Source: Streptomyces sp. NBC_01497
Lineage (GTDB): Bacteria > Actinomycetota > Actinomycetes > Streptomycetales > Streptomycetaceae
NCBI RefSeq assembly: GCF_036250695.1
Contig: NZ_CP109428.1
Coordinates: forward strand, 464,824 to 528,823
Reading direction: 5' to 3'
Length of the DNA: 64,000 nucleotides
The translations under genes were made by a program, and so were the position numbers. Positions 1,087-64,000 of this stretch are shown piece by piece. Under the pieces are notes generated by a model. That model saw nothing but the letters and a program-made list of their open reading frames with translations, searched no databases and was not told the DNA's origin. Position 1 is the stretch's first letter, and each line of letters starts with the position of its first letter.

Positions 1087-1348
1087 GGGACGGCCCTGAC
1101 CCTTTCCCAGTCCTTCCGCTTCGGCCCTCGCCTCGCCGACGAAGTCAACGGGTGGCTCGCCATCGTCGACGCGTCCGGCGTCGCGCCGCGACCCTGGGCA
1201 TGGGCCGAACGGGTCCATCTGAGCCGGTCTGTGGGGGTGGGCCGCTGCGATCGCGATCTTGCCTGGCCCGCCGGGTTATGGTCCGCGTGGAAACGCTCCC
1301 TGAGGCAGTTCCTGCTGCTCCCGCTGGTGTGCTTGGAGGCTCGCAGGT

Positions 1349-2389: not shown

Positions 2390-2401
2390 GTCCGTGCACT
2401 G

Positions 2402-3033: not shown

Positions 3034-3115
3034 TCACGGCCATTCCTGTGTGCCTTTTTGGCCGTTGTGCTGGAATCGTCCGCGCGGTCGGAGGTCTGGC
3101 CGTCGCTATCCGTGC

Positions 3116-3331
3116 GTGCTGAAGTCTCCCGGACGCCTCGTCCTCACCGCCGTCGCTGCACTGACCGCCCTCTCCCTCACCAGTTGCAGCACGGACTCAC
3201 CGCCGCAGCAGTCCACCCGGCTTCAAAAGGCCGCGGGTCTCAACGCCAAGATCGACGCTGTGAAGAAAAGGCTGAGCCCGAGCGACCCGCCGCTACGGAT
3301 TGTGGTGGACACCGCCTTCACTCAGCGCTGA
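3116..3331 (+). CDS. Small lipoprotein
   Basis: A 71-residue product from a GTG start at 3116. It has a lysine/arginine start, a hydrophobic core (LVLTAVAALTALSL) and a lipobox LTSC at the end of the signal peptide, so it should be lipidated and held on the outer face of the membrane. The mature part is short and charged (KIDAVKKRLSPSD). A strong terminator follows directly. Function unknown; similar tiny lipoproteins are common in Streptomyces. Confidence 0.5.
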   Translation: MLKSPGRLVLTAVAALTALSLTSCSTDSPPQQSTRLQKAAGLNAKIDAVKKRLSPSDPPLRIVVDTAFTQR

Positions 3332-3357
3332 ACCACCCGGCTCTTCCCTTGCGGGAG

Positions 3358-3403
3358 CGGCCGACCCCTCAGCCCACCCACCGGCGGGCTGAGGGGTCGG
3401 CCG
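3358..3403 (+). terminator. Strong intrinsic terminator
   Basis: GGCCGACCCCTCAGCCC pairs with GGGCTGAGGGGTCGGCC across a short loop, directly after the lipoprotein stop. It can serve both the lipoprotein gene and the convergent pseudogene that ends at 3466. Confidence 0.8.
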
Positions 3404-3465
3404 GCCGAAAGCTCGACAGATGTCTGCCCGTCATGCAATCGAGGCTGGCGTTCGGACGGCCACTG

Positions 3466-4080
3466 TCACTGGACGTGGTTGGTCTCGATGCTGTCGTCGA
3501 TCCGGAACGTGATGCCCGTCGTCTTGCCGGCTTCGGCGTCTGGATCAACGAGATCGACGAAGTCCACGAGCTTCCTGTAGAGCCGATTGCTACAAGCGGA
3601 TGTGGTCGCATCGTCCACTACTGACCCCGCCTGCAACGAAACGAGCAGCTGGGCCAGATTGTGACCGGAAAGGATCACCTTCTGCATGCCATTCTGGCGT
3701 CCGCCCTCTGTCAGCTTGGTGATCCTCCCGTCCGGAAGGTTTGGGTTCTGTGTGAACTTGTCCTCGTAAGTTGGACAGCGGGTTCCGGTAATTGAGCGGG
3801 TGACGCTGTCAGTCCAGGTCGGCTTCCAGGTGCCGAACGCGAGGATTGCCATGAAGGTCCACGTGTCCTCATGGCAGACCAAGGTCAGATAGGAGACGCC
3901 AGTGGCCACCTTGAGGTTCTCGTTGTGCACTGCAAGGTCGACGGCGTTGTCTGCGAGGGCTTTCTCGCGTGCCGCCCAGTCCTCTTCCAGCCAGTGCTTC
4001 TCTTGCTGCCAACGGTCAAGAGCGATCTGCCGCTCCAGCGCCTTGCCCGCCCGGTACTCCTCGCGCTATGTCTTGAGCAT
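3466..4080 (-). pseudogene. Hypothetical protein interrupted by an amber codon
   Basis: The frame from 3930 down to 3466 encodes about 154 residues of natural composition (TLVCHEDTWTFMAILAFGTW near its start). The same frame continues upstream through a helical, charged region (ALERQIALDRWQQEKHWLEE) to an ATG at 4080. In that frame codon 5 is TAG (4066-4068). Either a point mutation inactivated the gene or translation starts inside at GTG 3930. Family not recognised. DNA here is less GC-rich than the surroundings. Confidence 0.5.
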
Positions 4081-18763: not shown

Positions 18764-18809
18764 CTGATCGTACGTTTCATGAGGTAGAGTGGCACTCGGG
18801 AGGTGCTTC

Positions 18810-21110: not shown

Positions 21111-21122
21111 GAGCAGCCGACG

Positions 21123-21680
21123 ATGACCCTGTTCGGCGACGGCCTGGACGCCGCGGTACAGAAGGCGTTCACCCGCCCAGCGCCCAAGAACGCCGGCCCA
21201 CAGATGCGCTACCTGGTCAAGCAACTGGGCGGCACCAAGCTAGTCGCGCAGATGCTGCGGATCTCCCAGCGCACCGTCGAGCGGTACGTGAAGGACCAGA
21301 TCAAGAAGCCGCGCCCGGACCTGGCCGCGCGCCTAGAGCGCGAGGTGAAGAAGCGGTGGCAGCCGCAGATCCGGGCGAAAGCCCGGAAGAGGGCGGCGAG
21401 CACAGGCGGCATCGTCATCGACGCCCGTGCCCGCATGGGCTACACCGCGCCGATCGGGTCGACCGACCAGGACCGCATCCGGCACCTGACCGTCGCCCTG
21501 CCTCCGCAGTACGCCGCCCAGCTCTTCGAGGCCCAGGAGGCCGGCGCCAGCGACGCCCGCCTCCAGGACATCGCGGGCGAAGCCCTCAAGGAGGTGTACT
21601 TCCAGGACGGCGGCCGCCGCGCCGGCAGCCTGGAGGAGGTGCGCTTCACCGACGTGGAGCACCTGGAATTCGACTTGTAA
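21123..21680 (+). CDS. tpg: Telomere terminal protein Tpg
   Basis: 185 residues, the usual size. The helix-turn-helix TKLVAQMLRISQRTVERYV (residues 38-56) is followed by a basic segment (KKRWQPQIRAKARKR) and GYTAPIGSTDQDR, whose Thr114 coincides with the residue I recall as the DNA-linked threonine in Streptomyces Tpg. The C terminus ends VRFTDVEHLEFDL. The protein primes DNA synthesis to fill the lagging-strand gap at the telomere and stays covalently attached to the 5' end. It is cotranscribed with tap and has TAGGAG as ribosome site. Intact. Confidence 0.93.
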   Translation: MTLFGDGLDAAVQKAFTRPAPKNAGPQMRYLVKQLGGTKLVAQMLRISQRTVERYVKDQIKKPRPDLAARLEREVKKRWQPQIRAKARKRAASTGGIVIDARARMGYTAPIGSTDQDRIRHLTVALPPQYAAQLFEAQEAGASDARLQDIAGEALKEVYFQDGGRRAGSLEEVRFTDVEHLEFDL

Positions 21681-50018: not shown

Positions 50019-50158
50019 GCGACGGCTCCTCGCGTAAATCGGGTAGGGCTCGAGTCCCCAAGACAACATCCCGAGAAGCGAAATCCCAAGCAACAGGCCC
50101 GAGGGCCGACTGTGATTCCGAGGTTCGTAGCTGGTGTGGCGAGGGCTGCTTGAGCTGG

Positions 50159-50279
50159 GGTGTTGGTGATTCCCTGATAAGGAGTCCGGCGCTTACGGGG
50201 AGCTGGAGACAGTGGTGATGGGGCGTCTGGCCTGTGGTTGTTCGGGGTTCGTTGATAACGGCGGTGTGGTGTTGGTGAT
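50159..50279. repeat. 12-bp direct repeats, candidate TnsB-binding region
   Basis: GGTGTTGGTGAT occurs at 50159-50170 and again at 50268-50279, with related shorter copies near 50213 (GTGGTGATGGGGC) and 50247 (GTTCGTTGATAACGG). Repeated sites of this kind define the ends of Tn7-like elements. Located in the gene-free stretch after the last gene of the module. Confidence 0.35.
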
Positions 50280-50356
50280 GGGCTCCGGTATCTAAAGGGT
50301 CGGTGCGGGTTTGTGCTGGTCAGCGGCTTGCTGCATGGTCGGGGTCTGCTGGTGGG

Positions 50357-50989
50357 CTATGCCGTTGCTGTCGGGTGGGGGTTGCCGCCGGTCCAGTACA
50401 GGGCGGTGTCGATGTCGCGTGCGGTCCAGCCGGCGGCGTGTGCTCCGCCGTGGTGGAGGAGGTCGTCGAGGAGCTGGAGGTAGCGGCCGTAGCGTCCCGG
50501 TGTGGGGGTGAGGGGGAGGCGGAGGGTGTCGAGGGCGTGTTGGACGCGGCGGTCGTAGACGGCCATCCGCTGGGGTGCTGCTGCGGTGAGGATGGCTGAG
50601 GCGAGGGCGTCGCCGGTGCGGAAGCCGGGCAGTTCCCAGATGATGCCGCGCCCCGTGCGGGCGGCCTCCCCGCGCGAGATGGTGGTGTCGCGGACGGCGG
50701 TGACGACTCGCTCGGTGACGGCTCGGACCTGGGTGTCGGGCAGGGACATCAGTTCTGTCACCCAGCGGGTTTGTGCGGAGAGCCGTTTCCAGACGACGAG
50801 GGCTGCGATGTCCGTCTTGCCGAGGCTGCCGGTGTGCTCGGTTCGCTGCGCGACGTCGTGGAGGACCTCGTCGTAGTGGGGTGAGACGCCTGCCAGGTAG
50901 TCGGCGCGGGCGGGGATCAGGGTGTCCCAGGCCTGCCGGCAGAGGGCAGCGAACTCGTCGCCGCCTGGCGTTTCGGTGGTCGTCTTCAT
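50357..50989 (-). CDS. HhH/OGG-fold-like protein in the tns operon
   Basis: 210 residues, starting seven bases after the tnsC stop. The C-terminal half carries LPGFRTGDALASAILTAAAP followed by QRMAVYDRRVQHAL, the pattern of a helix-hairpin-helix DNA-glycosylase-like fold (LPGVG..ASAILT, then D.R). The N-terminal half is helical (DIAALVVWKRLSAQTRW). The Asp and a Lys-like catalytic residue cannot be assigned with certainty. Its place as last gene of the transposition operon suggests a DNA-binding or repair role during insertion, but this is inference. Confidence 0.6.
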   Translation of the reverse strand: MKTTTETPGGDEFAALCRQAWDTLIPARADYLAGVSPHYDEVLHDVAQRTEHTGSLGKTDIAALVVWKRLSAQTRWVTELMSLPDTQVRAVTERVVTAVRDTTISRGEAARTGRGIIWELPGFRTGDALASAILTAAAPQRMAVYDRRVQHALDTLRLPLTPTPGRYGRYLQLLDDLLHHGGAHAAGWTARDIDTALYWTGGNPHPTATA

Positions 50990-50996
50990 GTCCGCA

Positions 50997-52067
50997 TCAT
51001 GCCGTTCTGGCGGGTTGGCGGGTTCGGGGGCGGCTTGCTTCTTCGGCGAGGTGGTCGAGCTGGATAGCTTCGAGCGCCTTTTTGGTGATGCGTTCGGTGC
51101 CGTCGCAGATGGCGGTGATCGCTGCTTGGCGGATGAGGCGGGCGAGGCTTCCGATGCGGCCGGCGGTGCGCTGGTGGAGGTAGGAGGCGTGGCGGGGGAG
51201 TGTGCCGGGTGTGTGCTGGGTGAGGTCGAGGGCGTTCTCCATGTCGGTGATGAGATCGGTGAAGGGGCGGGTGTTTCCGTGGCGGGCGGGGAGGGGGCCG
51301 CAGGTGATGAGGCTGGCGCGGCCGGCGAGTTGGGCGCCGCGTACTCCGGAGAACAGCGTGGTTGAGGCGACGTCGATGCCGGTGTAGACGAAGGTTGCTC
51401 TGATGCGTTCGGTGAGGTCTTTGAGCAGGTCGGCGGCTTCGGCGCCGGTGGTCGTGCGCGGGTTGAGGCGGTGGATCTCGTCGATGAGGACCAGGCGGAC
51501 GCCAGCGGCGGTGTAGGTGTGGCAGACGGCCTCGGTGATCTGGGTCTGGGTCATGCGGGTGGTGACGGGGATGCCGAGGTAGCGGGCGAATTCGGTGGCC
51601 AGGGTTTTCGCGGTGGCGCCGGCCGGCACCAGCAGGTACGCGACCGGTGTCTGCTGGTGGGTGCGTCCGGGCGGGGCGGGGTGTTTTCGGGTGTGGGCGA
51701 GGTGGCAGGTGCGTCCGACTTCGAGGAGGGCGGTCGTTTTCCCGGCCGCGGCGGGGCCGGTGACGATCAGTGAGGGCCGGGCGGTGGTCTGCTGGTGGCG
51801 GCCGAGGAGCATCAGGGTGCGGACCTGGGTGGCGAGGGTGTTGATGGCGGGGGTGCGGACGGTGACGAACGCGGAGTGGTAGGCGAGGCGTTCTTCCGTG
51901 CTGCGTGGGGTGTCGCCGGGCTGGGGCGGGGTGAGGGGCGGGGTGGTGGCGAAGCGTTGCCAGCCCTGCCAGGTGGTGATCGGCCATTCCGGCTCGACTG
52001 CCTGCGTGCCAGGCGGCGGTGCCTCGGTGTTGGCGGGGGCGTGGTGGTTGCGTGCGGGGCTGGTCAC
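50997..52067 (-). CDS. tnsC: TnsC-like AAA+ ATPase
   Basis: 356 residues. The GTG start at 52067 overlaps the tnsB stop (GTGA), so translation is coupled; the longer frame upstream is a shadow of tnsB. Walker A GPAAAGKTT (104-112), Walker B RLVLIDEIHRL (191-201), arginine-rich sensor region (TDMENALDLTQHTPGTLPRH, RIGSLARLIRQAAITAI). It belongs to the TniB/TnsC group. In Tn7-like systems it polymerises on DNA, links the TniQ target selector to the transposase and controls insertion. Appears intact. Confidence 0.9.
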   Translation of the reverse strand: MTSPARNHHAPANTEAPPPGTQAVEPEWPITTWQGWQRFATTPPLTPPQPGDTPRSTEERLAYHSAFVTVRTPAINTLATQVRTLMLLGRHQQTTARPSLIVTGPAAAGKTTALLEVGRTCHLAHTRKHPAPPGRTHQQTPVAYLLVPAGATAKTLATEFARYLGIPVTTRMTQTQITEAVCHTYTAAGVRLVLIDEIHRLNPRTTTGAEAADLLKDLTERIRATFVYTGIDVASTTLFSGVRGAQLAGRASLITCGPLPARHGNTRPFTDLITDMENALDLTQHTPGTLPRHASYLHQRTAGRIGSLARLIRQAAITAICDGTERITKKALEAIQLDHLAEEASRPRTRQPARTA

Positions 52068-54226
52068 CAGTTGAGGGCTTCCTGAGCGGGGTCGTAGAGG
52101 CCGAGTCCGGTGTACGGGACGGGCACGTCGCTGGTGTCGCCGGGTCCGAGTTCGTCTTCGCTGTCGGCCTGTTCTGGTTCGTCGGGCTGGTCGTCGAGGT
52201 CGTCGAGGTCGTCGATGCTGTCGTCGTCCCAGGCGTCGTCCCAGGCGTCGGCCTGCGGGGCCGGATCGTAGGGAGGGCGGGTGCCGGCTGCGGGCGGGGG
52301 TGTTTTCAGTGGTGCGGCGCGGGTGATCAGGCGCTGTTCGCCGGGGGTAGCGGTGCCGGCGTGGGCGCGGCGCATGAGCTGGTCGAGGGCGTCGGCGAGG
52401 TCGGCTTCGTGGGTGTCGCGGTCGCTGTGGCGGGTGGTGATCGTTTTGATGTGCTGCCAGGTGGCGCTGTTGAACGGCTGGTGAATGTGGTCGCGGTGGA
52501 TCCACGGGATCTCTGTCAGGTGTCCGTCGGGCAGGCGGATCCAGACCTGGCGGGCGTCGTGGGGGTTGGTGTGGACTTCCCATTTGCCGCCGCGTGCGGT
52601 GACGGGGGAGGGCTGACCGCGGTAGGGGGCGAGGACATCGTGGTCGTAGGTGCGGTGGTCGACGCGGATGCCGCGTTCGGTGATGGCCTGCCAGCGCACC
52701 GGCAGCAGTTCGAGGTAGTCGCTGCCGCTCAAGGGGAGGGGCACGTAGCCGGTCACGGCGATAAGCGCGGCCCACATCTGGTTCGGGGTGAGAGCCTTCT
52801 TCGGCAGGGTGGGGTGGCGCAGGCCTTCGTGGGGGCGGTGGTGGTAGTGGATCAGCCATTCGTCCAGAAGGTCCTGCATCTGGGCGACGCTGAAGCAGGC
52901 CTCGCCTTCGGCGTCCGGTCCGCGGCGGGTGACGTCGGAGCCGGTGTAGCCGGGCAGGTGCTGGCACAGCAGGGCGTTGACCGTGCCGAAGGTGCGTTCG
53001 ACGATGCCTTTGGCGGCGGGGGCGTGGGGCGGGGTGGGCTGGACGCTGATGCCGAGGGTTTCGCAGGCGGCGGTGAACGCCGTGGACAGGTAGACCTTGC
53101 CCCGGTCCACGACGATCGTCTCGGGCACCACCACCGGCCGGGCAGCCGCGCCCTCGAGCCGTTCGTCCAGGTCCATCAGCCGCTGTAGCTGGGGGAGTTG
53201 GGTGTGGGCGAGGCACAGTGCGTCGGGCCAGGAGGGACGGGCCGCGTGCGGGACGGCCATCTCGGCGAGCAGCAGGGCCGCGTCGACTGCCTTGGTGCCG
53301 GCGGGCCGCAGGACCGCGGCGAGGATGGCGCGGGTGGCGACGTCGACGGCGATCGTGAGTTCGGGCCGGCCGGTGGTGCCGTCGTCGAAGACGGCCAGGA
53401 CGTCCAGCCGTGTGGTGTCGACCTGCACCTGCTCGCCCGGCCGCAGCGCCACGGTCGGGGTGAACGCCTGTCCGCCGGTGGGGGAGGGGAGAGTACGGGC
53501 GGGGCGGTGGGGGTGTTCGGCAGGGTCGGCGAGCTGGTGGACGAGCCGGTAGAAGGTGGCCTGGGAGGGGGCGGGCACTGTGCCGCGGCCGTGCCGGTCG
53601 GTAAGGATCTGTGTGACCAGGGGCATCAAGCCCTTGACGGTGCCCTTGGAACGGCCGCGCTGGCGGCGCAGCGCTTCCTCGATGGCGGCGATGACGCGTT
53701 CGTCGGTGCGCCCGGTAGGCACGGGCCGACGGGTGGTGCGGTGGTCAACCAGCCCCCACAGTCCCTGCTTGCGGTAGGCCAGGCGCATGCGCTGCACCGT
53801 GGTCCGGGAGACAGGGCCGAAGCCGATCGCGGTCAGCTCCGTGGCCTTGGCCTCCTCGCGCTGTGCGAGGGTGAACCGGTCGGGGTCGTACTCGGCCCGG
53901 GGCGCCCCGTCGCTGTCCGTCCCGCCGGGCAGGCCGGTCTCCACCTCGCGGATGTGCCGCTGCCAGGCCAGTGCCTTGCGCCGCGCGTCCTCGGGCGCGG
54001 TTTCGAACAGACCCCACTGCGTTGCGGCCTGGGGCATTTCGGCGCCCACGATGGTGAAGGACGGGTCGGCGAACAGGTGTCCGGCCACGACCGTCTCGTC
54101 TTCGCCTGTTTCACCGGCGAGGTGGACCTGCTGCCCCGCCATCGCGATGACCTGCCAGGTGCGGTCACGGAAGCGGACGTGCGCTCCGACCTGCAGCACC
54201 GGCCGGCCGCCACGCCGCACGCTCAC
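52064..54226 (-). CDS. tnsB: TnsB-like DDE transposase
   Basis: 720 residues from a GTG that overlaps the tnsA stop (GTGA). N-terminal DNA-binding region with helix-turn-helix segments (TAIGFGPVSRTTVQRMRLAY, VTQILTDRHGRGTVPAPSQA). Integrase core with D270 (EQVQVDTTRLDVLAVF), D374 (ETIVVDRGKVYLSTAF) and E410 (AAKGIVERTFGTVNAL). C-terminal beta-barrel and an acidic tail (DDSIDDLDDLDDQPDEPEQA), which in Tn7 contacts TnsC. It cuts and joins the 3' ends of the transposon. Full length and intact. Confidence 0.93.
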   Translation of the reverse strand: MSVRRGGRPVLQVGAHVRFRDRTWQVIAMAGQQVHLAGETGEDETVVAGHLFADPSFTIVGAEMPQAATQWGLFETAPEDARRKALAWQRHIREVETGLPGGTDSDGAPRAEYDPDRFTLAQREEAKATELTAIGFGPVSRTTVQRMRLAYRKQGLWGLVDHRTTRRPVPTGRTDERVIAAIEEALRRQRGRSKGTVKGLMPLVTQILTDRHGRGTVPAPSQATFYRLVHQLADPAEHPHRPARTLPSPTGGQAFTPTVALRPGEQVQVDTTRLDVLAVFDDGTTGRPELTIAVDVATRAILAAVLRPAGTKAVDAALLLAEMAVPHAARPSWPDALCLAHTQLPQLQRLMDLDERLEGAAARPVVVPETIVVDRGKVYLSTAFTAACETLGISVQPTPPHAPAAKGIVERTFGTVNALLCQHLPGYTGSDVTRRGPDAEGEACFSVAQMQDLLDEWLIHYHHRPHEGLRHPTLPKKALTPNQMWAALIAVTGYVPLPLSGSDYLELLPVRWQAITERGIRVDHRTYDHDVLAPYRGQPSPVTARGGKWEVHTNPHDARQVWIRLPDGHLTEIPWIHRDHIHQPFNSATWQHIKTITTRHSDRDTHEADLADALDQLMRRAHAGTATPGEQRLITRAAPLKTPPPAAGTRPPYDPAPQADAWDDAWDDDSIDDLDDLDDQPDEPEQADSEDELGPGDTSDVPVPYTGLGLYDPAQEALNW

Positions 54227-55047
54227 TGCCCCTCCCCGCTGCCCGGGCCGCCGTGGCCGTTCGCACCGCCGGCGCCGGTGCTGACGAGGACCCGCTCGTT
54301 AAGCGGTACGTCCAGGGGCGCGGTGAGGTGTCCGTGCCACAGGGCGTGGAAGACGGCGGGCAGGACTTCGATCGGGTCGCCCACCGCTTCGACGCCCTCG
54401 ATCAGCGGCTGCGGCTGTGCGAACACCTCACGCAGGGCGGCCGCGAGACGGGGATGGCCGGCGTTGCGGGGGTGGCGGTACCCGGCCAGCCATTTCAGGT
54501 TTGCCGAAAGCGTCTTCTCCAGCGGCTCAAGGCGCCGGTAGCTCCAGCCGGCCTGCGCGCACGCCGCCTCAAGGACCGTCGCAGCACGCTGCGCCCGCTC
54601 GCCGCCGGCCTCCAGGTGGTTGGGGCAGTCGGCCAGCAGGGCGGTGCCGTCGCGGTGGCGGGCGAAGAGCTGCGGCACCCACGAGCGGACCTGGCCGCGC
54701 GCGTCCCGCCACAGCAGACGCACCGGCCGCCCGGCCAGGCCGACCACCTCGGGGTCGCGGTCCAGCACCGTCAGCTGCGCCCGCATCGCGGCCGACCCGC
54801 ACGCCACATGCCGGCCGGTCGTGGCCGACCACCACTGCCCAGGACCCCACCGCCGCCTCGGCACCACCGGGAACGCCGACACCGGCTCCAACTCCTCGAA
54901 GGCCACCGCGAGAACCGCGTCCGCCCACCGCTGCTGCACCACCTGCCCGAGAGGATCGACGAAGACCGCCTCCCACTCGGATCCGGTATCCGTCTGCATG
55001 CGCTGTGAGCGGCCACCTGCTGCGGCCGCTGCGTCCTTGCTGCCCAC
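54223..55047 (-). CDS. tnsA: TnsA-like subunit with degenerate nuclease site
   Basis: 274 residues from GTG 55047 (an ATG at 54999 is also possible). The Streptomyces TnsA layout is clear: WWSATTGRHVACGSAAMRAQ, DRDPEVVGLAGRPVRLLWRD, SWVPQLFARHRDGTALLADC and SANLKWLAGYRHPR. In active relatives the first block contains ESxxERD (Glu catalytic) and the third HxPDFFxR (Asp). Here the Glu is Met88 and the Asp is Gln126, and the following basic residue is also absent. The fold is kept, so it may bind TnsB and TnsC, but 5'-strand cleavage looks lost. TnsA normally lets Tn7 cut and paste. Confidence 0.85.
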   Translation of the reverse strand: MGSKDAAAAAGGRSQRMQTDTGSEWEAVFVDPLGQVVQQRWADAVLAVAFEELEPVSAFPVVPRRRWGPGQWWSATTGRHVACGSAAMRAQLTVLDRDPEVVGLAGRPVRLLWRDARGQVRSWVPQLFARHRDGTALLADCPNHLEAGGERAQRAATVLEAACAQAGWSYRRLEPLEKTLSANLKWLAGYRHPRNAGHPRLAAALREVFAQPQPLIEGVEAVGDPIEVLPAVFHALWHGHLTAPLDVPLNERVLVSTGAGGANGHGGPGSGEGQ

Positions 55048-55177
55048 GCGCCCCAGTCAAGCCCGTCCTGCCAGTGCGGCGGGCCGCTTCACGGATTTTG
55101 ATCACGAGTGCCGGGCCATGAGGTAGTGCCCTGCGGATCGTGGTCCCTGCAGAGCCTGCCTGCCTCCTGACACTTAC

Positions 55178-56584
55178 TCACCGCTCCTTTCCCGGCCGCT
55201 CGTTGCGCTGGTCCGCGAGTGCCTCGGCCAGGACATCGGCCGGCAGACGGGCCCAGCGCGCCAGGTCCTCCAGCGCCATCCCGGCCGCGAAGGCTGCTGC
55301 TGCGCTCTCCCGGACGGCCTGCTCGATCAGTGTGGCGGCATGGCCGAGGTTGCCCAGCAACTGCTGCGCGGCGTCGGCGGTCTTGCCGTACTGGGCGCCG
55401 CGCAGCTGGGTCAGCTGCTCTTCGGCGTCGTTGACCAGGCTGCTGATCAGCGCCCGCTGCTCGGCCGGCACCGCAGAGCGCCACGTGGTGCCCGAGCCGG
55501 GCGCGCTACGTTCCTTGGACAGGACGCGCAACTGTCCGGCCATGGTCGCGGGCTGGTGTTCCTGGCGCAGCCACCACGGATCGTTGTCGTAGCCGGGCGG
55601 GCCGCCGGCGCCACGACGGATGCGGATGACGGCGCCCATCCACGAGGTCAGCGGGCCGCCGTAGTCGGTTGCCGCCAGCGGCCCCAGCCACCCCCGCCCG
55701 ACGCGCTCACCGAGTCGGCGGCAGAACGCCCCGTCGGAGGGCAGCGCCCGCGGCCGCCCGGCACCGCTGTCCCTCCACACCAGCTCGGCCATCGCCGGGT
55801 CCAGCAGCGCGTCGGCCACGGCCACCACCTCGGGGAAGACGACCGCGTCCCGGCCCACGATCCGCCACCGCTCCAGCTCTGTACCGGCGTTGCCGCCCGC
55901 GACCTGGTGCAGCCGCTGAGGCCACAGCGTCTCCCGCTCCCAGTGCAGAGCCTGCTCCCACCACCGGGCCACCACCGCATAAGCCAGAGCGAACACCCTC
56001 TCCGGCTCCGCTCCAGCCCGTACCGCCCGCCGCGTCACACCAGTCCACCGCCGCTGCGCCGCGGCCACTTCCGGCACACCCCGTACGTCCAGATACTCAA
56101 GAGGCTGGTCGGCGTCGGCGTCCAGGAGCCACCGCCCGTGCCGGACACACACCCGCTCCCATCGCGGCGCGTACCGCACCACCCGCACGGCCGTCCCCGC
56201 GCGCCGGGCCGCGCACAGACGGCAGCCGAAGGCGACCGGCCCGGCGACCGCACCCCCGGTCCGCCACGCGGCCGCCGGCACGCTGTTCTTTCTGGCCGAC
56301 AGCTTGGCGTCCTGCTGTCCCCAGGACGGCAACGCCCGCGCCAGCACGTCTTCCTCGACGCCGCACATGCCTGCCAGTAGCTGTCGTCCGGGCGGGTTCA
56401 GCAGCACCTCGGCGTCGGCCCGCGTGCCCCCGCCGTCGTGCCCCGGCGGGTAGTTGCGCCACTGCCAGCACGACCGCAACACCTTCGCTTCCATCCCGTA
56501 ACGGCCCGCGATGCGGCAGATCAGCGACGAGGTCGTCTCCCCCTGAAGGGGAACTGTCCGCAGCAGGCCGGGGTGATGGGTCAC
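55178..56584 (-). CDS. tniQ: TniQ-family target selector 1
   Basis: 468 residues. N-terminal TniQ domain: LRTVPLQGETTSSLICRIAG RYGM, with the zinc motif CRLC (121-124) and CVRH (146-149) followed by GRWLLD, as in TnsD/TniQ. The rest is helical and Trp-rich (LLDPAMAELVWRD, WMGAVIRIRRG). No HA modules. It begins 130 bases upstream of tnsA on the same strand. TniQ/TnsD proteins bind the target DNA and load TnsC; this one may serve a second target site or form a pair with the TniQ-HA protein. Confidence 0.85.
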   Translation of the reverse strand: MTHHPGLLRTVPLQGETTSSLICRIAGRYGMEAKVLRSCWQWRNYPPGHDGGGTRADAEVLLNPPGRQLLAGMCGVEEDVLARALPSWGQQDAKLSARKNSVPAAAWRTGGAVAGPVAFGCRLCAARRAGTAVRVVRYAPRWERVCVRHGRWLLDADADQPLEYLDVRGVPEVAAAQRRWTGVTRRAVRAGAEPERVFALAYAVVARWWEQALHWERETLWPQRLHQVAGGNAGTELERWRIVGRDAVVFPEVVAVADALLDPAMAELVWRDSGAGRPRALPSDGAFCRRLGERVGRGWLGPLAATDYGGPLTSWMGAVIRIRRGAGGPPGYDNDPWWLRQEHQPATMAGQLRVLSKERSAPGSGTTWRSAVPAEQRALISSLVNDAEEQLTQLRGAQYGKTADAAQQLLGNLGHAATLIEQAVRESAAAAFAAGMALEDLARWARLPADVLAEALADQRNERPGKER

Positions 56585-56824
56585 TTCACCACGGTCTCGT
56601 GTCCGCCGTCCCGGCGGGCGCTTTTGCAGCGGATGCCCAGGCGCCCCGTCCTCCTGGGGCCGTCACTTCTACTCGACGGAGCCACCTTCAGACCGTTTTT
56701 CCTGCCACCTCCTGCTACCCCTGTGACCTGCGAAGGCGATGCGACAGGCCGGGAGACAGGGGGAGTTGGGAAAAGATCTTGGCCATCGGCACGCCCTACG
56801 TGATCACTCTCGGAAGTCTCACCG

Positions 56825-59800
56825 TCACGCTTCACGCAAGGTGCCTTGCCGACTCGAAGCCTCAGGGCGGATACCGATGGTGCTCAGCAGGGCCTGTTGG
56901 TGGGGGTGGAGTTGGTGCCAGAGGACGGTTTGTTTACGGGCCCAGCGCTGAAGCTCGGGCGGGAGGGGCTGGCCTGTGGTGCGGAGGGTGCGGTGCTGGT
57001 GGTACTTGCGTTGCCAGGCGAAGGGCCAGGGCGGGTTCCACCAGGGGTCGAGGACGGTGAGTTCTTGCAGGGTGAGGGCGGACAGGAGGCCAGCGCGGGC
57101 TTTGCGCCGTTGCTGGATGAGCCAGTGCCCCAAGGCGAAGCCGTGGTGCTGGGTGTGTTTGAACACGGCTAGGTGGCCGTGGGCGGCGGCGTAGGCACGG
57201 GCGTGGGGGAGGCCTTCGCCTGCGGGATAGCGGTGCGCGGTTGTAGGAGCCGGTACGGGTTCGGTGGCGGGCGTGGCGCCGAGGTTGGCCAGGAGCTCTT
57301 GCTGGGTGGGATGGAGGCTGTCCCACAGCCTTGTCTGGGTGGTGGCCCAGCGTCGCTGGGCCACGGTCAGGTTGCCGCTGGCAGGGGCGGCGTGTGCCCG
57401 GTGGTAGGCGCGCTGCCACGCCAGGGGCCAGGGCGGGTTCCAGTGCGGGTCAAGGGCGTTCAGCGCGGCGATCCGGGCCGGATCGGTGCGCCCGTCAGCC
57501 ACGCGGTGTCGCTGGCGTAGGAGCCAGGTACCGAGGGGATAGCCGTTGTGGCGGGTCCGTTCGGCCACGGCCAGATGCCCGTGTTCGGCGGCATAGCTAC
57601 GTGCGTGGGCGAGCCCTGTGTCTACGCGGGCGGGGCTTCGATCGGCTTCGGTCACTGCGCGGGCGACGGCAGAGGAGATGCCGATGTCCGCGAGGAGACT
57701 CTGCTGATCGAGTTGCAGAACGTCGTGCTGGACGCACTGACGGTGCAGCCACACTGTCACCTCGTCCTCGTCCCTGCCGCGATGCGGGCCAAGCACGTTC
57801 AGCTGGCCTTTCCGCCATCGCTTACGGGCCCGCTGGTAACTCCGCTGCCAGGGAAAGGGCCAGGGCGGGTTCCACCAGGGATCCAGTTCGGCCAGCAGCC
57901 GGCCACGCAGCCACACGCCTTCGGTGGCTTGAGCGTGCCGACGGTCCTGGCGGCGCTGCTCCACCAGCCAGCGGCCCAGGGCAAACCCGTCGTGCACGTA
58001 CTCGGAGGCAACCGCAAGGTGCCCGTTTACCGCGGCGAAGGAACGAGCACTGGCCATGCCGTCCAAAGCCCACAGACCGGCAGCAGCAATCTGCTCGTTC
58101 ACGGCCTGGGATGCCCCGGACCCGCCCTGCACTTTCGCGGCTTCCTCGGCTGTGATGCCGATGTCTGCCAGCAGGCGCTGCTGATCGGGGTCCAGACGCC
58201 GATACGCGGCGCACTGCCGCGACAACCACAGGGCAAGATCTGCTTCGACTCCTGGAAAGCCGCCCCCCACATCGAGCCCGCCCCGGCTCTCCACCAGCCG
58301 CCGGGCCTGTGCGTAGGAGCGCTGCCATGTCAGCACCCAGGGCGGATTCCACCAGGGGTCGACGGCGTCGAGGGCACGGGAGTGCTCCGTAGGTTCCCGG
58401 TTCTCGCGGGCCCTGCGGCGCTGGTGCACGAGCCACGACCTCAGCGGATACCCCTGGTACATCGCGTCCTTGCCCGAGACGGCCAGGTGACCCTGCTCGG
58501 CGACGTAGGACCTGGCGTGCGTCAGCCCCGTTTCGAAGCCGGCCTGGATGGGGATCCGCCGCGGCAGAGCGGTGCGGGCCGCCTCGGCCGTGATCCCGAT
58601 GTCCGCCAGCAGACGCTGCTGCTCAGGATGGAGAGTGCTGTAGTGGGTGCACTGCAGATACAGCCACTCGCCGTTGAGGATCTGGGTGCCGGGGAATCCC
58701 GCGGCCGCATCGGGCGGGCCGGCGACTGCGGCGTGATCGCGCGCCCGGTAGTACGAGCGCTGCCACTGCACCGACCAGGGGACGTTCCACCACGGGTCCA
58801 AAACCGCGAGAGCCTGTGCACGGTCCGGCCCTATTGCCCACGCTCTGGTCTGGACGTTGCTCAGCCATTCCCCAAGCCGATAGGAATCGATCACGGTGTC
58901 CTGCGGGACTGCGAGATTGCCGTGTTCGCGCACGTAGCGGCTGGCATGCACCAGGCCGGCCGCGAAGGCTTCGTCCGCCTGCCGGCTGTGTCCGCGCCGC
59001 CGTTTGCCTTCCGCGCTACGGCCGCCGGACCCCACATGCGCCCGTACCGCGAGTTCGTCCACCAGAGGGAGCTGACGGTGCGCCGGAGCCACCGCCCACA
59101 TCGCCTGTTCCGCAGCCCTTGTCCCACCCTGTGCCCGCACGCACTGATAAGCCCACGCAAAGAGAGGACCTGACGTCTCCTGCGCCAGCTGCTCCACGTA
59201 CCAAGGCCTCCGCACACAGCCCGCAACAGCAGTTAAAAGCGACGGCAGATCAGCCAGGCGAAAAGGAAGATGGCCCTGTGCATCGGCCACCACGCGGCGC
59301 CGGAAGCCGTCACTGGCAAGCAGAGTGGCCAGAGCAACGGTCTCCGGATAGATCACCAGTTCCCGAGCCACAACCCGCCACACATCCTGGTCCAAGCCGT
59401 CACTGTCCAGGCTCCGCAGCCGCGCCGACCACAAATGCTCCTGCGGCCACGTCTGCCACCACCACGACGACGCCACCGCCCGCGCCACCTCAAAAGCATC
59501 CGACGCCAGCGCGGAACGACGCAGCAGCCTCACGTGACGGCGCTGGGCGTCCAGCACCTGCCCGCACCCGGCCAGGTCCATCACTCGGCCCGCCGTGCCC
59601 GGGATATGCATCAGCCACCGGCGATGAGACGGGCACACCCGCTGCTGCGGCCCCAGATACAGGCGAGCGGTCTCCCTCCTTCCGGTACGCCGCGCCGTGC
59701 ATTCAGGGCAAGCCGGCCCCCAGCACCGAACCTTCTCCGCGGTGTGGTGAAACTGCGCTGCCGGCCCTATAGCGAACCGTCGACGGGGCTCCTCCTGCGC

Positions 59801-60100
59801 CCAGGCAGGCAGCGCCCGCAGCAGACGATCCTCCGGGACGCGACACAGCTGCGCTACCCGGTTCCGGGCCTCCTGGTTCAGGTAGATCTCGCTGTCCAGC
59901 TGCGCCCTGCCCATCGCGTTCGGCAGCCCGTCCACATCGACGACCGCCGCCAGCAGGTCCCTGAACGCCATGCCGTAGCGCGCCGCCAGCCGCGTCAGGA
60001 ACGACTGCGTCATCTCGCCCTGCAGCGGTCCCACGCGCAGCACACCGCTCGGCAGCGCGAGCCCCTCAACTGCTGCCGGTGCCTTACTCTCGCCGCTCAT
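56825..60100 (-). CDS. TniQ fused to five helicase-associated (HA) modules
   Basis: 1091 residues from ATG 60100. Residues 15-165 form a TniQ domain: LRVGPLQGEMTQSFLTRLAA RYGM and zinc motif CPEC (131-134) with CPSH (156-159). After a helical linker come five tandem modules (about 376-510, 521-650, 675-810, 824-940, 960-1080). Each has GLxHARSYAAEHGHLAV, LGxWLxxQRR, DPWWNPPWPxxWQRxY and then QQxLLADIGI. These match helicase-associated domains of the next gene, the terminal helicase. The likely role is to place TnsC at a chosen DNA site, probably telomere-related. The gene is intact and lies 93 bases after the helicase gene. Confidence 0.85.
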   Translation of the reverse strand: MSGESKAPAAVEGLALPSGVLRVGPLQGEMTQSFLTRLAARYGMAFRDLLAAVVDVDGLPNAMGRAQLDSEIYLNQEARNRVAQLCRVPEDRLLRALPAWAQEEPRRRFAIGPAAQFHHTAEKVRCWGPACPECTARRTGRRETARLYLGPQQRVCPSHRRWLMHIPGTAGRVMDLAGCGQVLDAQRRHVRLLRRSALASDAFEVARAVASSWWWQTWPQEHLWSARLRSLDSDGLDQDVWRVVARELVIYPETVALATLLASDGFRRRVVADAQGHLPFRLADLPSLLTAVAGCVRRPWYVEQLAQETSGPLFAWAYQCVRAQGGTRAAEQAMWAVAPAHRQLPLVDELAVRAHVGSGGRSAEGKRRRGHSRQADEAFAAGLVHASRYVREHGNLAVPQDTVIDSYRLGEWLSNVQTRAWAIGPDRAQALAVLDPWWNVPWSVQWQRSYYRARDHAAVAGPPDAAAGFPGTQILNGEWLYLQCTHYSTLHPEQQRLLADIGITAEAARTALPRRIPIQAGFETGLTHARSYVAEQGHLAVSGKDAMYQGYPLRSWLVHQRRRARENREPTEHSRALDAVDPWWNPPWVLTWQRSYAQARRLVESRGGLDVGGGFPGVEADLALWLSRQCAAYRRLDPDQQRLLADIGITAEEAAKVQGGSGASQAVNEQIAAAGLWALDGMASARSFAAVNGHLAVASEYVHDGFALGRWLVEQRRQDRRHAQATEGVWLRGRLLAELDPWWNPPWPFPWQRSYQRARKRWRKGQLNVLGPHRGRDEDEVTVWLHRQCVQHDVLQLDQQSLLADIGISSAVARAVTEADRSPARVDTGLAHARSYAAEHGHLAVAERTRHNGYPLGTWLLRQRHRVADGRTDPARIAALNALDPHWNPPWPLAWQRAYHRAHAAPASGNLTVAQRRWATTQTRLWDSLHPTQQELLANLGATPATEPVPAPTTAHRYPAGEGLPHARAYAAAHGHLAVFKHTQHHGFALGHWLIQQRRKARAGLLSALTLQELTVLDPWWNPPWPFAWQRKYHQHRTLRTTGQPLPPELQRWARKQTVLWHQLHPHQQALLSTIGIRPEASSRQGTLREA

Positions 60101-60193
60101 GCCACCCCACTCCGTCGGCCCCGCTTCTCGTAACCACCTGCGAGCCACACCCAGTTACGGAACGGAGGGGTCTGCGCACCGATCAAGCAGCAT

Positions 60194-62845
60194 TCATGCC
60201 CACTCGACTCCCAGCTCCGCGAGGGCAGCGCGCTGCTCCTGCGCGAGCTTGTCGCGGCGGGTCTTGGTGTTGGAGACCCACACGCCCAGCTTCACGGTCA
60301 CCGGTTCAGCCTCGCCGCCGACCGTGATCCGCTCTGCATGAGCCCTGGGGACGCGGTCGTGGCCTTCGCGGGCGATGTACTGAGCGAGAGCCGCAAGGCC
60401 CCGCTGGAAGGCCATCGACGCCTTCCCGGAGCCCTTGGTCGTGGTGGCCGGGACGGGCCGTTCGGCAGGCTTCACGCCCAGCCCGGACAGGCGCTGTTGC
60501 TGCTCCTTCGGCAGCTCCGTCCAGGAGCTGACTTGCCGCTGGAGCCATCGGCCAAGGTCATCACCTTCGAAGAGCACGCCCGGCTCAATCTGCGGCAGCA
60601 TGCCGTCGGCGTCGACGAGGTCGGCGAGGATGCGGTAGTGGCGTTGCCAGTCCAGCGGCCACGGGCAGTCCCAGTCCTCATCGATGGCGGTCAGGTGCGC
60701 GGCCCGTACCGCGGCGCGCTCGGGGTCCTTCCCGAGGCCGCCCTTGCGGCGCAGATTGGCCATGTGCTGCCCGATGGGCACCATGCCCTTGGCCTCGCTC
60801 TCGCCCCACACGGCGTCCTGACGGGGTGCGAGGTGCCCGGTGGCCCGCCTGTACGAGCGCAGCGCGGCGAGCTTGGTCTCCCAGGCTTCCTCACCCGGCT
60901 CCCACACCATCCCGGCCTCTTCGGCGTCCAGCAGCTCCTTGCGCCGCTCCTCCAGCTCCCCGGCCCGCAGCGCCTTCCGCTGCTTGTGGACCCAGCGCCC
61001 AAGGGGAAAATCTTTCGTCACCCCGACCTGGGTCTCTGTGTCGTAGGGAACGGCGTAGAGGCCGGTGATCTCGTTCTCCGCCCGCCAGCGGAGCAGGGCC
61101 TGGTAGCCCTCCAGCCAGACGAGGCTGTCCGGCCGGTAGACGCGGGTACGCAGGAACGCGGCGATCGTGGCGGCGTCCCGGGGAGTGCTGAAGTGGAGCA
61201 GAGCGGATTCGGCGGCGGCCTGGGTGTCGTCGTGCTCCTGGTCCTCGCCGTCGCCCGCGCCGTCGGCGCCGATGATCTGGCCGTTCTCGTCTCGCTGGAT
61301 GTGGACCTTGCGCTTGCCGCTGGTGAGGGCGCGGGAGGCGAGCTGCTCAACGAGTCGTTCATCATGACTGCGGAGCCCTTGCAAAACGGCTACAAGGGGG
61401 CGGAACGAGGCGGAGGCGACCATGTCGTTCGGGTCCTCGTTCGGCTCCAGGAAGATCGGCACGATGATCCTGGCCACCTTGGTGGAGCCGTCGCGGTTCA
61501 ACCTCAGCGCGCGGCCGATGTTCTGCACGATCTCCACCTGGGAGCCGCGGGTGTCCGCGAAGCAGATCGAGTCGACTCCCCGCTCGCCGGTGATGTCCAC
61601 GCCCTCACCGAGAACGCGAACGCTGGCGAGGAATGCCCGGTGCACCCGGCGCCCGGCCGCGTCGATGCCATTGGCGAACTGCCGCAGCGCCTCCCGCCGC
61701 TCGGCTACGAGGTGGTCACCGCACAGCCACGCCGACCACACCCGGTCCGGCGGGACGTGGCGGCCGGCCTCCAGCTCGTAGAACTCCGCGTCGATCGAGG
61801 ACGCGGGGAGCTTGTCGGCGGCGGCCAGATCGGCGTCGGAGGCGTCGTTCAGGAACAGCGCGGCAGCCGTCTCGGGCAGCTTGTCCGCGAACGCACGGGC
61901 CTCTTCGACCTTCTGGTGGAACGTCATGACCGTACGCAGGTTGTACGCGGCGGCGTGCTCCAGGAGCGCGGTCTGCAACAGCGCCAGGCGCCTGCCGCGC
62001 CGCGCCTCCTCCGACTCCCCGAGGACAGGCGAGGGGTCGCGGATCTCCAGCACGTCGATCTCGAACCCGGCAAGGATTTCGCGCTCGATGGCCTCGCTCA
62101 GACCGAGCTCTGCGAGCCACGCGCCGTACGTGCCCTCCGGGTCGTCCGACATGGTCGCGATCTCCGCCTCCTGGCCGTCCGCGCCCTTCTGCGGGCGGGC
62201 CGCGGCGAGGATACGCGGGGTGGCGGTGAGGTAGAGCCGGAAGTCCGCCGGGATACGGGCGTTGTCGTGGATCGCCGCCCACGGACGCCCAAGATCACCA
62301 GCGGTTCCATGTGCCTCATCCACGATGGCGAGGTCGAAGCCGTCCATGCGCTGCCCGTAGAGCCGCTCCCCGCCCGCCAGAGCGGCCTCCAGCGGCCCGC
62401 GAACCCTCCGCTGGCCCTCGGGCGCGTCGATGTCCTCCCGGTCCACGAGAGAGGCGTACGTGGCGAACACGACCACGGGCCCGTGCCCGGCCCACAGAGC
62501 GAGCTGGATCGGGTTCGTGGTGGTGCGCACCCCGAGCGAGCCCAGGACCGCGTCGTTCTCCAGCGAGCACACGGCGACCATCGGCGCCCGGTGGCCCACC
62601 GCCCGCCACGCCTGGGCGGTCTGCGCGAGCAGGTCCAGGGTCGGCACCGTGATGAGGATCCGGCCGTCCGCGAACGACTCCAGCGCGCACGCAGCAGCGG
62701 TGATCGTTTTGCCGGATCCGGTCGCGGAGACGATCGTGCCCCGGGCACCCTGCGGGGGCGGAGATGATCTTGCAGTAAATTCTACCCATCTGCGGAAACT
62801 CGTTTTCTGGTCCAGTTGGTGTTTCCGAAGCTGTACGTGCGGCAT
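60194..62845 (-). CDS. ttrA: TtrA-like terminal (telomere-associated) SF2 helicase
   Basis: 883 residues from ATG 62845; the longer upstream frame overlaps the ankyrin gene and is rejected. Core motifs: Q-like QLRKHQ, Walker A SATGSGKT (40-47), DEAH (176-179), LTATPR, and GEGVDITGERGVDSICFADT with QNIGRALRLN (motifs V and VI). The C-terminal 250 residues contain helicase-associated repeats (DEDWDCPWPLDWQRHYRILA, LGRWLQRQ, LGVWVSNTKTRRDKL). Such helicases are the outermost genes of many Streptomyces linear replicons and were linked to conjugal transfer in S. lividans. It heads the minus-strand cluster that continues with the tniQ and tns genes. Confidence 0.88.
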   Translation of the reverse strand: MPHVQLRKHQLDQKTSFRRWVEFTARSSPPPQGARGTIVSATGSGKTITAAACALESFADGRILITVPTLDLLAQTAQAWRAVGHRAPMVAVCSLENDAVLGSLGVRTTTNPIQLALWAGHGPVVVFATYASLVDREDIDAPEGQRRVRGPLEAALAGGERLYGQRMDGFDLAIVDEAHGTAGDLGRPWAAIHDNARIPADFRLYLTATPRILAAARPQKGADGQEAEIATMSDDPEGTYGAWLAELGLSEAIEREILAGFEIDVLEIRDPSPVLGESEEARRGRRLALLQTALLEHAAAYNLRTVMTFHQKVEEARAFADKLPETAAALFLNDASDADLAAADKLPASSIDAEFYELEAGRHVPPDRVWSAWLCGDHLVAERREALRQFANGIDAAGRRVHRAFLASVRVLGEGVDITGERGVDSICFADTRGSQVEIVQNIGRALRLNRDGSTKVARIIVPIFLEPNEDPNDMVASASFRPLVAVLQGLRSHDERLVEQLASRALTSGKRKVHIQRDENGQIIGADGAGDGEDQEHDDTQAAAESALLHFSTPRDAATIAAFLRTRVYRPDSLVWLEGYQALLRWRAENEITGLYAVPYDTETQVGVTKDFPLGRWVHKQRKALRAGELEERRKELLDAEEAGMVWEPGEEAWETKLAALRSYRRATGHLAPRQDAVWGESEAKGMVPIGQHMANLRRKGGLGKDPERAAVRAAHLTAIDEDWDCPWPLDWQRHYRILADLVDADGMLPQIEPGVLFEGDDLGRWLQRQVSSWTELPKEQQQRLSGLGVKPAERPVPATTTKGSGKASMAFQRGLAALAQYIAREGHDRVPRAHAERITVGGEAEPVTVKLGVWVSNTKTRRDKLAQEQRAALAELGVEWA

Positions 62846-62956
62846 GGAGAACTTTCTTTCAGTGAGGTCTACGGTTCGTTGTCCGACAATGAAGCCGAGG
62901 TGATTGCGGTGTACTGGCGGTGATGGACGTAGCTCTGGTTGGGATGTTGGGGGACG

Positions 62957-63568
62957 ATGCGGGAGATGGATGGGGCAGCGAAGTTGGTAGAGGCGGCGGG
63001 TTGTGGCGATCTGGAGCTGATGACAAGTCTGCTGGGCAAGGGCACACCGGTCGACGGCAGAGATCGAGAGGGCCGTACTCCTCTGGATCGTGCTCTGTGG
63101 GCGGGGCGGCACGGAGCTGTCTGTCTGCTCCTGGCTGCGGGCACGAACACTGAACAGCCCATCGGGCAGTACGCCGAGACGCTGCCACTGCGCTTCACCG
63201 CTGAGCGTGGAATGCAGACCATGGCCCGCATTCTGCTGGAGGCCGGGGCAGAGCCTGATGGCCGACTGTGTGAGGGGCGGGCAACCGCCTTGATGGTGGC
63301 GGCCACCGAAGGACAGGAGGGCATCGCTGAGATGCTGCTGGACCACGGAGCATGCCTGGAGTCGGTGGGACGGGGCCGGACACCGCTGGAATGGGCGGCG
63401 TCCGGGGGCAGGCCGGCAGTCGTCCGGCTGTTGCTGGACCACGGCGCCACCCGGATAGCCGAGGCACTGGCCCAAGCTGGCCGTGGCGCCAACCGCTGGA
63501 AACACACTCCTGAGCGCCAAGCAGAGTACACGGAGACAATCTCCATGCTCCTGGCCGCAAGCAACTGA
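62957..63568 (+). CDS. Ankyrin-repeat protein
   Basis: About 203 residues made of ankyrin repeats: LVEAAGCGDLELMTSLLGKG, GRTPLDRALWAGRHGAVCLL, TALMVAATEGQEGIAEMLLD and GRTPLEWAASGGRPAVVRLL. No signal peptide. It is divergent from the helicase (111 bases between starts) and transcribed toward the telomere, making it the outermost gene. It may act in protein binding; function unknown. A start at 62966 is also possible. Confidence 0.8.
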   Translation: MREMDGAAKLVEAAGCGDLELMTSLLGKGTPVDGRDREGRTPLDRALWAGRHGAVCLLLAAGTNTEQPIGQYAETLPLRFTAERGMQTMARILLEAGAEPDGRLCEGRATALMVAATEGQEGIAEMLLDHGACLESVGRGRTPLEWAASGGRPAVVRLLLDHGATRIAEALAQAGRGANRWKHTPERQAEYTETISMLLAASN

Positions 63569-63778
63569 CCCTGAACCGCCGTTCCTCTCTCAGAATTCCG
63601 GAAAGGTTCCCGGATGGCTGGGGGTATCCCGCCTTTCCGCCAACAATACATGGTGCATCAACCGTGATGCACACGGTCCACTAGAACCCACACGAACGAG
63701 CCCCCCACCCCTCGCAGCCAGCCCGGCCCGCGCCAGCGGGCCCCAACGGGCCTGGAGGCGCAGCCGGAAGGACCGTCA

Positions 63779-63803
63779 GGCGGGGGAGCGCAGCGGACCC
63801 GCC
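63779..63803. repeat. Telomere palindrome (inner, imperfect)
   Basis: GGCGGG and CCCGCC arms around GGAGCGCAGCGGA. An imperfect hairpin marking the inner limit of the palindromic zone. Confidence 0.5.
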
Positions 63804-63878
63804 CCGGGCCGAAGCGAAGCGAAAGCCCCCAGCGAAGGCGCAACCTTCACCCCGTTCCGGGAGCGCAGCGAACGGAAC

Positions 63879-63909
63879 CTCACCCCACGGGCGCAGCCCG
63901 TGGGGTGAG
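63879..63909. repeat. Telomere palindrome, 14-bp arms
   Basis: CTCACCCCACGGGC, loop GCA, GCCCGTGGGGTGAG. A perfect hairpin with the C-GCA-G loop. Confidence 0.9.
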
Positions 63910-63929
63910 TGGCCCGCGCAGCGGGCCAC
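63909..63929. repeat. Telomere palindrome, 9-bp arms
   Basis: GTGGCCCGC, loop GCA, GCGGGCCAC. It touches the preceding palindrome. Confidence 0.9.
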
Positions 63930-63931
63930 CA

Positions 63932-63954
63932 GCGCTCCCGCGGAGCGGGAGCGC
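63932..63954. repeat. Telomere palindrome, 10-bp arms
   Basis: GCGCTCCCGC, loop GGA, GCGGGAGCGC. Nearly identical to a palindrome of the archetypal Streptomyces telomere as I remember it. Confidence 0.9.
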
Positions 63955-63979
63955 AACCACCTTGCGCAGCAAGGTGGTT
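63955..63979. repeat. Telomere palindrome, 11-bp arms
   Basis: AACCACCTTGC, loop GCA, GCAAGGTGGTT. Directly joined to the preceding palindrome. Confidence 0.9.
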
Positions 63980-63989
63980 CGCTTGCATT

Positions 63990-64000
63990 GCGCGCAGCGC
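63990..64000. repeat. Terminal palindrome at the window edge
   Basis: GCGC, loop GCA, GCGC at the very last bases; probably the terminal palindrome (I), possibly cut short by the window or assembly. Confidence 0.7.

Follow-up and report, generated by a model that had tools for sequence, protein, structure and literature searches.

The window analysed here comprises 64,000 nucleotides at the right end of the plasmid contig (528,823 bp) of Streptomyces sp. NBC_01497, a two-contig genome whose chromosome contig measures 8,552,978 bp. Its last 13.9 kb (window positions 50111-64000) form a block that carries a Tn7-like transposition module against the end of the replicon, and this block occupies all four termini of the genome, those of the chromosome and those of the plasmid, without substitutions. 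We consider it probable, at about 70%, that the block is a mobile, one-ended transposon which spreads to other chromosome ends by being copied onto them together with its telomere. The module was first described in a reading of the window made without database searches (hereafter the sequence-only reading), and its gene order, strand and placement against the chromosome end were as stated there. From the tip inward, the telomere is followed by an ankyrin-repeat open reading frame (ORF) on the plus strand and then, on the minus strand, by genes for a helicase, TniQ-HA, a second TniQ, a TnsA-like subunit, TnsB, TnsC/TniB and a 210-aa protein. The module is thus complete and sits at a linear replicon's end, as expected of a telomeric transposon.

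When 20 kb from each contig end were aligned, the four terminal copies spanned 13,885-13,890 bp and differed from one another, pair by pair, by 0 mismatches and 1-5 gap openings. A search of the genome with the last kilobase of the window matched 4/4 contig ends; besides these, it gave just two 31-base palindromic matches, both within the same right-hand tips. With the inner end as query, the genome search recovered four full copies, all of them terminal, and no other matches. Comparison of the two ends of the plasmid, which the sequence-only reading had proposed, revealed the same 13.9-kb block on both and unrelated flanks beside it.

The inner edge of the block is defined to the base. The same first base, 5'-TGTGATTCC, opens the block in three unrelated flanks (chromosome, plasmid left and plasmid right), which gave no mutual alignment better than E 0.02, and in each of these distinct junctions the match begins at TGT (5'-TGTGATTCCGAGGTTCG, window 50111). 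The end alignments and the flank comparison therefore correct the inner edge, earlier placed at 50094, to 50111. Whether the boundary is sharp had been left as a question, which strain NBC_00984 also answers in the affirmative: there, a 9.2-kb element occupies p1L, p1R, p2L and p2R with 0-3 mismatches, meets three distinct flanks and begins at a single boundary base. Its inner terminus is CTAACG, not TGT, with the bases further in conserved, and the first ~60 bp of the inner end are alike in other elements and in solo ends. These results indicate one specific, inward-facing transposon end, and its imperfect repeats are candidate TnsB sites, to judge from their sequence. Inspection of the junction flanks by eye showed no common target motif. 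A paired single insertion that linearised a circular plasmid was rejected, also by eye: the five bases before the inner end are non-complementary between the two sides, so the two ends of the plasmid did not arise from one event.

At its outer edge the block ends in what looks like a telomere, as had been proposed. The four contig ends finish with the same bases and are alike apart from insertions and deletions, and the last 181 nt form a far more stable fold than shuffled sequences do (z -8.47, 0/200 shuffles). Among the 40 plasmid records listed, of 167 matching the last 431 bp, 38 match within 130 bp of the record end, one of the remaining two matching ~3.5 kb in and the other internally. 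On the identical ends, the fold and the plasmid-end matches together, we reject the view that the right edge is an assembly break in unique DNA. Compared with S. globisporus C-1027 SGLP1 and pSHJG1, all four contigs end ~20 nt short, and the final palindrome of the tips may be absent from the assembly. A second transposon end was sought in the outer 1150 bp, where the best local score was 23, the mean for shuffled sequences being 22.1, and 78/200 shuffles reached that score; a strongly diverged end could escape detection in such a search. With the outer end at shuffle level, the block appears to lack the two ends with TnsB sites that a Tn7-like element would have; it reaches the contig tip at four ends, and the telomere stands in the place of the other end. 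The four-end block, the lack of a detectable second end and the anatomy of relatives all support the earlier proposal that the telomere is the outer end of an element that lives on chromosome ends and possibly supplies new ends with their helicase.

The end of CP003276 that resembles this telomere opens with a palindrome that we take to be the archetypal one, in conflict with a Sg2247-type assignment, and we assign no telomere class. The right end of pSHJG1 is classed as Sg2247-type in a passage of PMC8743542. Record orientation may explain the disagreement between this published class and the sequence at that end in CP003276. Outside the element, ~42 kb from the tip (18789-21680), the window also carries a tap-tpg pair, coding for a telomere-associated protein and a terminal protein, that would serve the telomeres of the element in trans, with tap at 18789-21110 (NF047542, 1095.5 bits) and tpg at 21123-21680 (NF047541, 282.4 bits); a short Tpg-like ORF at window 16448-16768 matches the C-terminal half only of the Tpg model.

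We examined where the inner ends lie. Nine of the 11 readable junctions are in or just beside a terminal helicase gene or a tns gene of another element. The 11 come from related strains and are not all independent, that of NBC_01340 is internal, and the count omits the left end of NBC_01005, where a search allowing five mismatches did not find the inner end, as well as the solo ends of NBC_00046, WZ-12 and NBC_01455. Six junctions fall within a helicase gene of the terminal type or a short way upstream of one (own plasmid left, NBC_00212, NBC_00984 p1R and p2, NBC_01362 and NBC_01650), and three are in a tns gene of another element (own chromosome, NBC_01340 and NBC_01592). On the chromosome of NBC_01497, the inner end adjoins the beginning of a remnant tnsB-like ORF belonging to an older, different Tn7-like module, with 33% identity to the TnsB of the window. 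The plasmid-left junction is inside a terminal HA helicase gene, of which the 3' part is left and whose counterpart in S. globisporus C-1027 SGLP1 lies 1079-3754 from the tip, and the plasmid-right junction is upstream of an enoyl-CoA hydratase-like gene. In the NBC_00212 relative (TnsB 90%), the inner TGT end abuts the 3' part of a helicase gene. The NBC_00984 inner end lies ~0.1 kb upstream of a full helicase gene on p1R and inside a helicase gene on p2, where p2L and p2R are alike over 20 kb, and in NBC_01340 the inner end lies against tnsC.

Two of these loci hold further genes. At the chromosome left end (locus L007, 13944-19059), a partial tnsB and TniB are followed by DUF3375 and DUF4194/MksE genes, which may be defence cargo beside the junction. 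In NBC_00212, the closest plasmid relative, TniQ-HA and the second TniQ are separated by additional genes, part of which carry the annotation of an ABC-three-component system (locus L011, 7562-10504).

Plasmids of NBC_01592, NBC_01362 and NBC_01650 share one arm, their inner arms being 98.2-98.9% and their elements 99.5% alike (the NBC_01650 record is without the outer 2.3-2.4 kb of the element). The inner end stands at three points of this arm, 0, 1605 and 2352 bp further in, respectively, and in NBC_01592 it sits inside tnsC, to judge by the letters of the flank and by the TniB annotated on stretches that match it. Eight other plasmid records have the helicase stretch of the shared arm starting at 0.8-1.3 kb from the physical end; some of these records are near-duplicates, and at least one contains its own module. 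Because the arm helicase lies this close to the tip elsewhere, the elements start where an older tip once lay. Repeated insertion would explain the series.

The TnsA-like subunit has kept its fold and lost its active site. Its structural model reached a pLDDT of 86.4, and the best PDB matches were Tn7 TnsA. Among the 120 closest relatives, the active-site E is replaced by M in 119/120 and the D by Q in 118/120; in an outgroup of 120, E and D are kept in 119/120 and 120/120. In the TnsA tree, all 11 rows labelled terminal fall in a clade of 13 (branch 100/100), and throughout the clade with the terminal copies the active-site residues are lost. From these residues and the model, we predict a nuclease-dead subunit with a retained fold; the intact PD-(D/E)xK site of a Tn7-like TnsA is missing. 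The DDE TnsB, AAA+ TnsC and TniQ of a Tn7-like element are all present. The departure from a two-ended, TnsA-active definition weakens the description as a classical Tn7-like transposon, not the view that the transposase works like that of a Tn7-like element. In a V. cholerae element with the TnsA active-site mutation D90A, >95% of reads were cointegrate reads, according to a passage of PMC8188705.

These features suggest one-ended replicative transposition, which would copy the element together with its telomere and discard the tip of the recipient. One or both TniQ proteins, together with TnsC, would choose a site in the terminal region of the recipient, and TnsB would make a nick at the inner 3' end and link this end to the chosen site. 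With TnsA dead, the second strand of the donor would stay uncut and the donor would keep its copy. Replication from the 3' end of the target would pass along the whole element as far as the tip, where it would probably be completed by Tap and Tpg, encoded on the same plasmid outside the element, and the old tip of the recipient would be lost. Repeated use of this route would explain the identical ends within one cell, the nested elements and the cut-off terminal helicases found immediately inward of the inner end. We give even odds to the narrower proposition that the element is a copy-only one-ended transposon, in which the loss of the TnsA nuclease means that excision was given up in favour of one-way copying onto a recipient.

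A similar anatomy recurs in relatives, at the ends of plasmids and, in one case, at a chromosome end. TnsA lies within 30 kb of the record end in 34 of 39 Streptomycetaceae records of at least 100 kb, 6.5 being expected at random; these are the records of that size among 60 TnsA rows listed of 136, with kinship ignored and the linearity of each record presumed. For other genera among the 60 rows, the figure was 1/12 records of at least 100 kb. Three of the five Streptomycetaceae exceptions were examined, and two have an intact TnsA motif and one, from S. nigrescens, a dead one. A TnsB match at E<=1e-60 was present in 21/41 genomes (own included), many of the matches being distant and internal. 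In a one-contig genome (G005), a helicase-TniQ-TnsA-TnsB-TnsC series without TniQ-HA starts 366 bp in from the left end of the contig; at the right end, the final 14 kb gave no match to any of the seven element proteins at E<=1e-10.

Several observations weigh against copying onto chromosome ends as the whole account. Its movement is deduced from the comparison of genomes, no transposition having been observed, and the 5-bp target-site duplications of a Tn7-like element are unreadable, the distal side of each target having been lost. Two of the 11 junctions (own plasmid right and NBC_00984 p1L) are in neither a helicase nor a tns gene, and the three-plasmid series could also have arisen by a single insertion and later deletions that ran inward from its inner end. 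Some copies are not terminal: the dead TnsA of S. nigrescens SNP1 lies 142 kb from an end, and a dead-type TnsA relative is found, non-terminal, on a circular S. griseorubiginosus plasmid. Solo inner ends occur internally in megaplasmids, namely in NBC_00046, in NBC_00012 and NBC_01590, which carry the same solo end as NBC_00046, in WZ-12 and in NBC_01455, and another lies in NBC_01340, 99 kb from an end; the end of a related 9.2-kb element was found internally in NBC_01591. To the question whether the module always lies near a terminus, the answer is yes for the 34/39 records and no for S. nigrescens SNP1, S. griseorubiginosus and the internal solo ends. The sequence-only reading had also named an internal module with two normal ends as a finding that would overturn it; no such module was found, although the S. 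nigrescens SNP1 and S. griseorubiginosus copies, whose own ends were not mapped, do lie away from replicon ends.

Two of these cases were described further. The S. griseorubiginosus plasmid (locus L054, 10001-17390) carries an unannotated dead-type TnsA frame, TnsB, TniB and TniQ-HA, and this module is possibly a non-telomeric relative. At four solo-end loci (L044 17001, L045 16002, L046 16009 and L047 12001), 56-224 bp of the end are followed by unrelated DNA, and no second copy of the end was found in the 24-34 kb of each locus.

Also counting against a purely transpositional account, the left and right chromosome ends are alike through all 20 kb compared, past the inner boundary of the element. 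The chromosomal terminal repeat therefore exceeds the element in length, and its extent of at least 20 kb implies that end-to-end recombination occurs here too. This likeness favours a spread of the block by homologous recombination or break-induced replication between similar telomeres instead of by a transposase, and the telomere and terminal-helicase sequences common to many replicons would offer the homology for crossovers. We nevertheless find that explanation unlikely: crossovers in shared DNA are not expected to end at one TGT base in three unrelated flanks, nor at one base in NBC_00984, and recombination can homogenise older insertions but not create the inner boundary. On the single-base boundary in three unrelated flanks, we reject a spread by recombination alone. 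The same boundary bears on the concern that one terminal repeat was pasted by the assembly on several contig ends. The copies differ by short gaps only, as they would after read error or the collapse of repeats, but three different flanks meet the block at one base and records of other strains show a like layout, and we attach next to no credence to an artefact.

The replacement of the distal part of an older end at the junctions, the lost TnsA active site and the presence of one near-identical cap per end would also suit a host-serving function, in which Tns proteins cap broken ends and the module is a domesticated telomere-healing device, not a parasite. We think this improbable, since the diversity of modules, the insertion of one element within another and additional genes, among them the annotated ABC-three-component genes of NBC_00212, resemble a mobile element, and the 20/41 genomes without a TnsB relative at E<=1e-60 argue against any general host necessity. 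A conventional two-ended Tn7-like element that prefers telomere-proximal targets and has its outer end just inside the telomere would account for the TnsA fold and for TnsB, TnsC and TniQ, all present. It has very little to recommend it: the outer end went undetected, the shared block includes the tip at four ends and the TnsA active site is lost. We reject an ordinary two-ended element on the shuffle-level score of the outer 1150 bp.

The features of the element are listed in Table 1. The GTG start of tnsC overlaps the tnsB stop, and the DDE motif of TnsB consists of D270, D374 and E410, with 35 residues separating the last two. The second TniQ, so named by the sequence-only reading, falls below the Pfam TniQ cut-off when taken alone (E 0.0011); the name stands on its likeness to the N-terminal TniQ part of TniQ-HA (31% identity, E 3e-35), and the protein could be aligned with five relatives, of which a single strain supplied two. 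The terminal helicase was correctly recognised. Its extent of 1108 aa, to 63520, was less well founded: the longer ORF is antisense to the ankyrin-repeat ORF at 62939-63568, and the ATG at 62845, giving 883 aa, is the most likely start. The label "HhH" for the 210-aa protein found no support, as this protein had no Pfam match above the cut-off and its model was poor (pLDDT 60.5); it has a counterpart in NBC_00212, and none is listed after TniB in NBC_00984.

Table 1. Features of the terminal element, in window coordinates
Feature	Position	Strand	Basis
Inner transposon end	50111..50356		5'-TGTGATTCCGAGGTTCGTAG..., imperfect internal repeats
Conserved 210-aa protein	50357..50989	-	544 relatives at E<=1e-3
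TnsC/TniB AAA+ regulator, 356 aa	50997..52067	-	Pfam TniB 1.7e-15, Walker A
TnsB transposase, 720 aa	52064..54226	-	Pfam Mu-transpos_C above cut-off, rve just below
TnsA-like subunit	54223..55047	-	NF033179 2.2e-84
Second TniQ-type protein, 468 aa	55178..56584	-	Likeness to TniQ-HA
TniQ-HA, 1107 aa, TniQ and six HA domains	56825..60148	-	Pfam TniQ 2.7e-8, HA 8.8e-64 (6 stretches)
Terminal HA helicase, 883 aa, inward-transcribed	60194..62845	-	Pfam HA (4 stretches), ResIII, DEAD; motifs
Ankyrin-repeat ORF between helicase and tip	62939..63568	+	Pfam Ank_2 5.2e-21
Telomere, palindromic terminal DNA, outer edge of block	63570..64000	+	Fold z, matches at plasmid ends, likeness of four termini

If the element is indeed copy-only, transposition would drive telomere replacement, the identity of ends per cell and the erosion of Streptomyces subtelomeres. 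Streptomyces telomere classes are discordant with the species tree, and a horizontal exchange of telomeres has been proposed, as stated in a passage of PMC8743542. The element described here is a concrete candidate for the agent of such exchange: its inner end is mapped, it caps four ends of one genome in near-identical copies, and relatives stand at different points of the same arm. The clade-wide loss of the TnsA active site makes for a sharp prediction of copy-only transposition.

The class to which the element belongs is already known, having been published in 2025, and the sequence-only reading was right that it might be. Telomeric transposons of linear bacterial genomes were reportedly described by Hsieh et al. 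(Science 2025, 387:eadp1973), and the criteria for a telomeric transposon used here are meant to follow the definition of that class. Hsieh et al. 2025 is cited for telomeric transposons in PMC12669027, in a passage that also mentions a CRISPR-associated member, and it is cited in PMC13228271 too; by its title and the PMC12669027 passage, the class is the same as that of the present element. Modules on plasmids of Rhodococcus and Mycobacterium kubicae resemble it in having a TnsA-like protein, TnsB, TniB and TniQ, with TnsA, TnsB and TniB in the same order. They differ in that TniQ follows TniB, TnsA keeps the active-site E, D and R, and the modules, assumed to be two-ended, are carried by a circular plasmid or occupy an internal site of a linear plasmid. 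Tn5053, the type V-K CRISPR-associated transposon and the V. cholerae element with TnsA D90A are replicative because only the transferred strand is cut, according to the passage of PMC8188705, and the same cutting is predicted here from sequence. Those systems have two ends and yield cointegrates, whereas one end and a telomere would give a copied chromosome end. The terminal helicase may be called TtrA-like by its position and domains, TtrA being encoded by an inward-transcribed helicase gene near the ends of Streptomyces replicons (passage of PMC8743542); unlike TtrA, the helicase described here lies within the repeated block.

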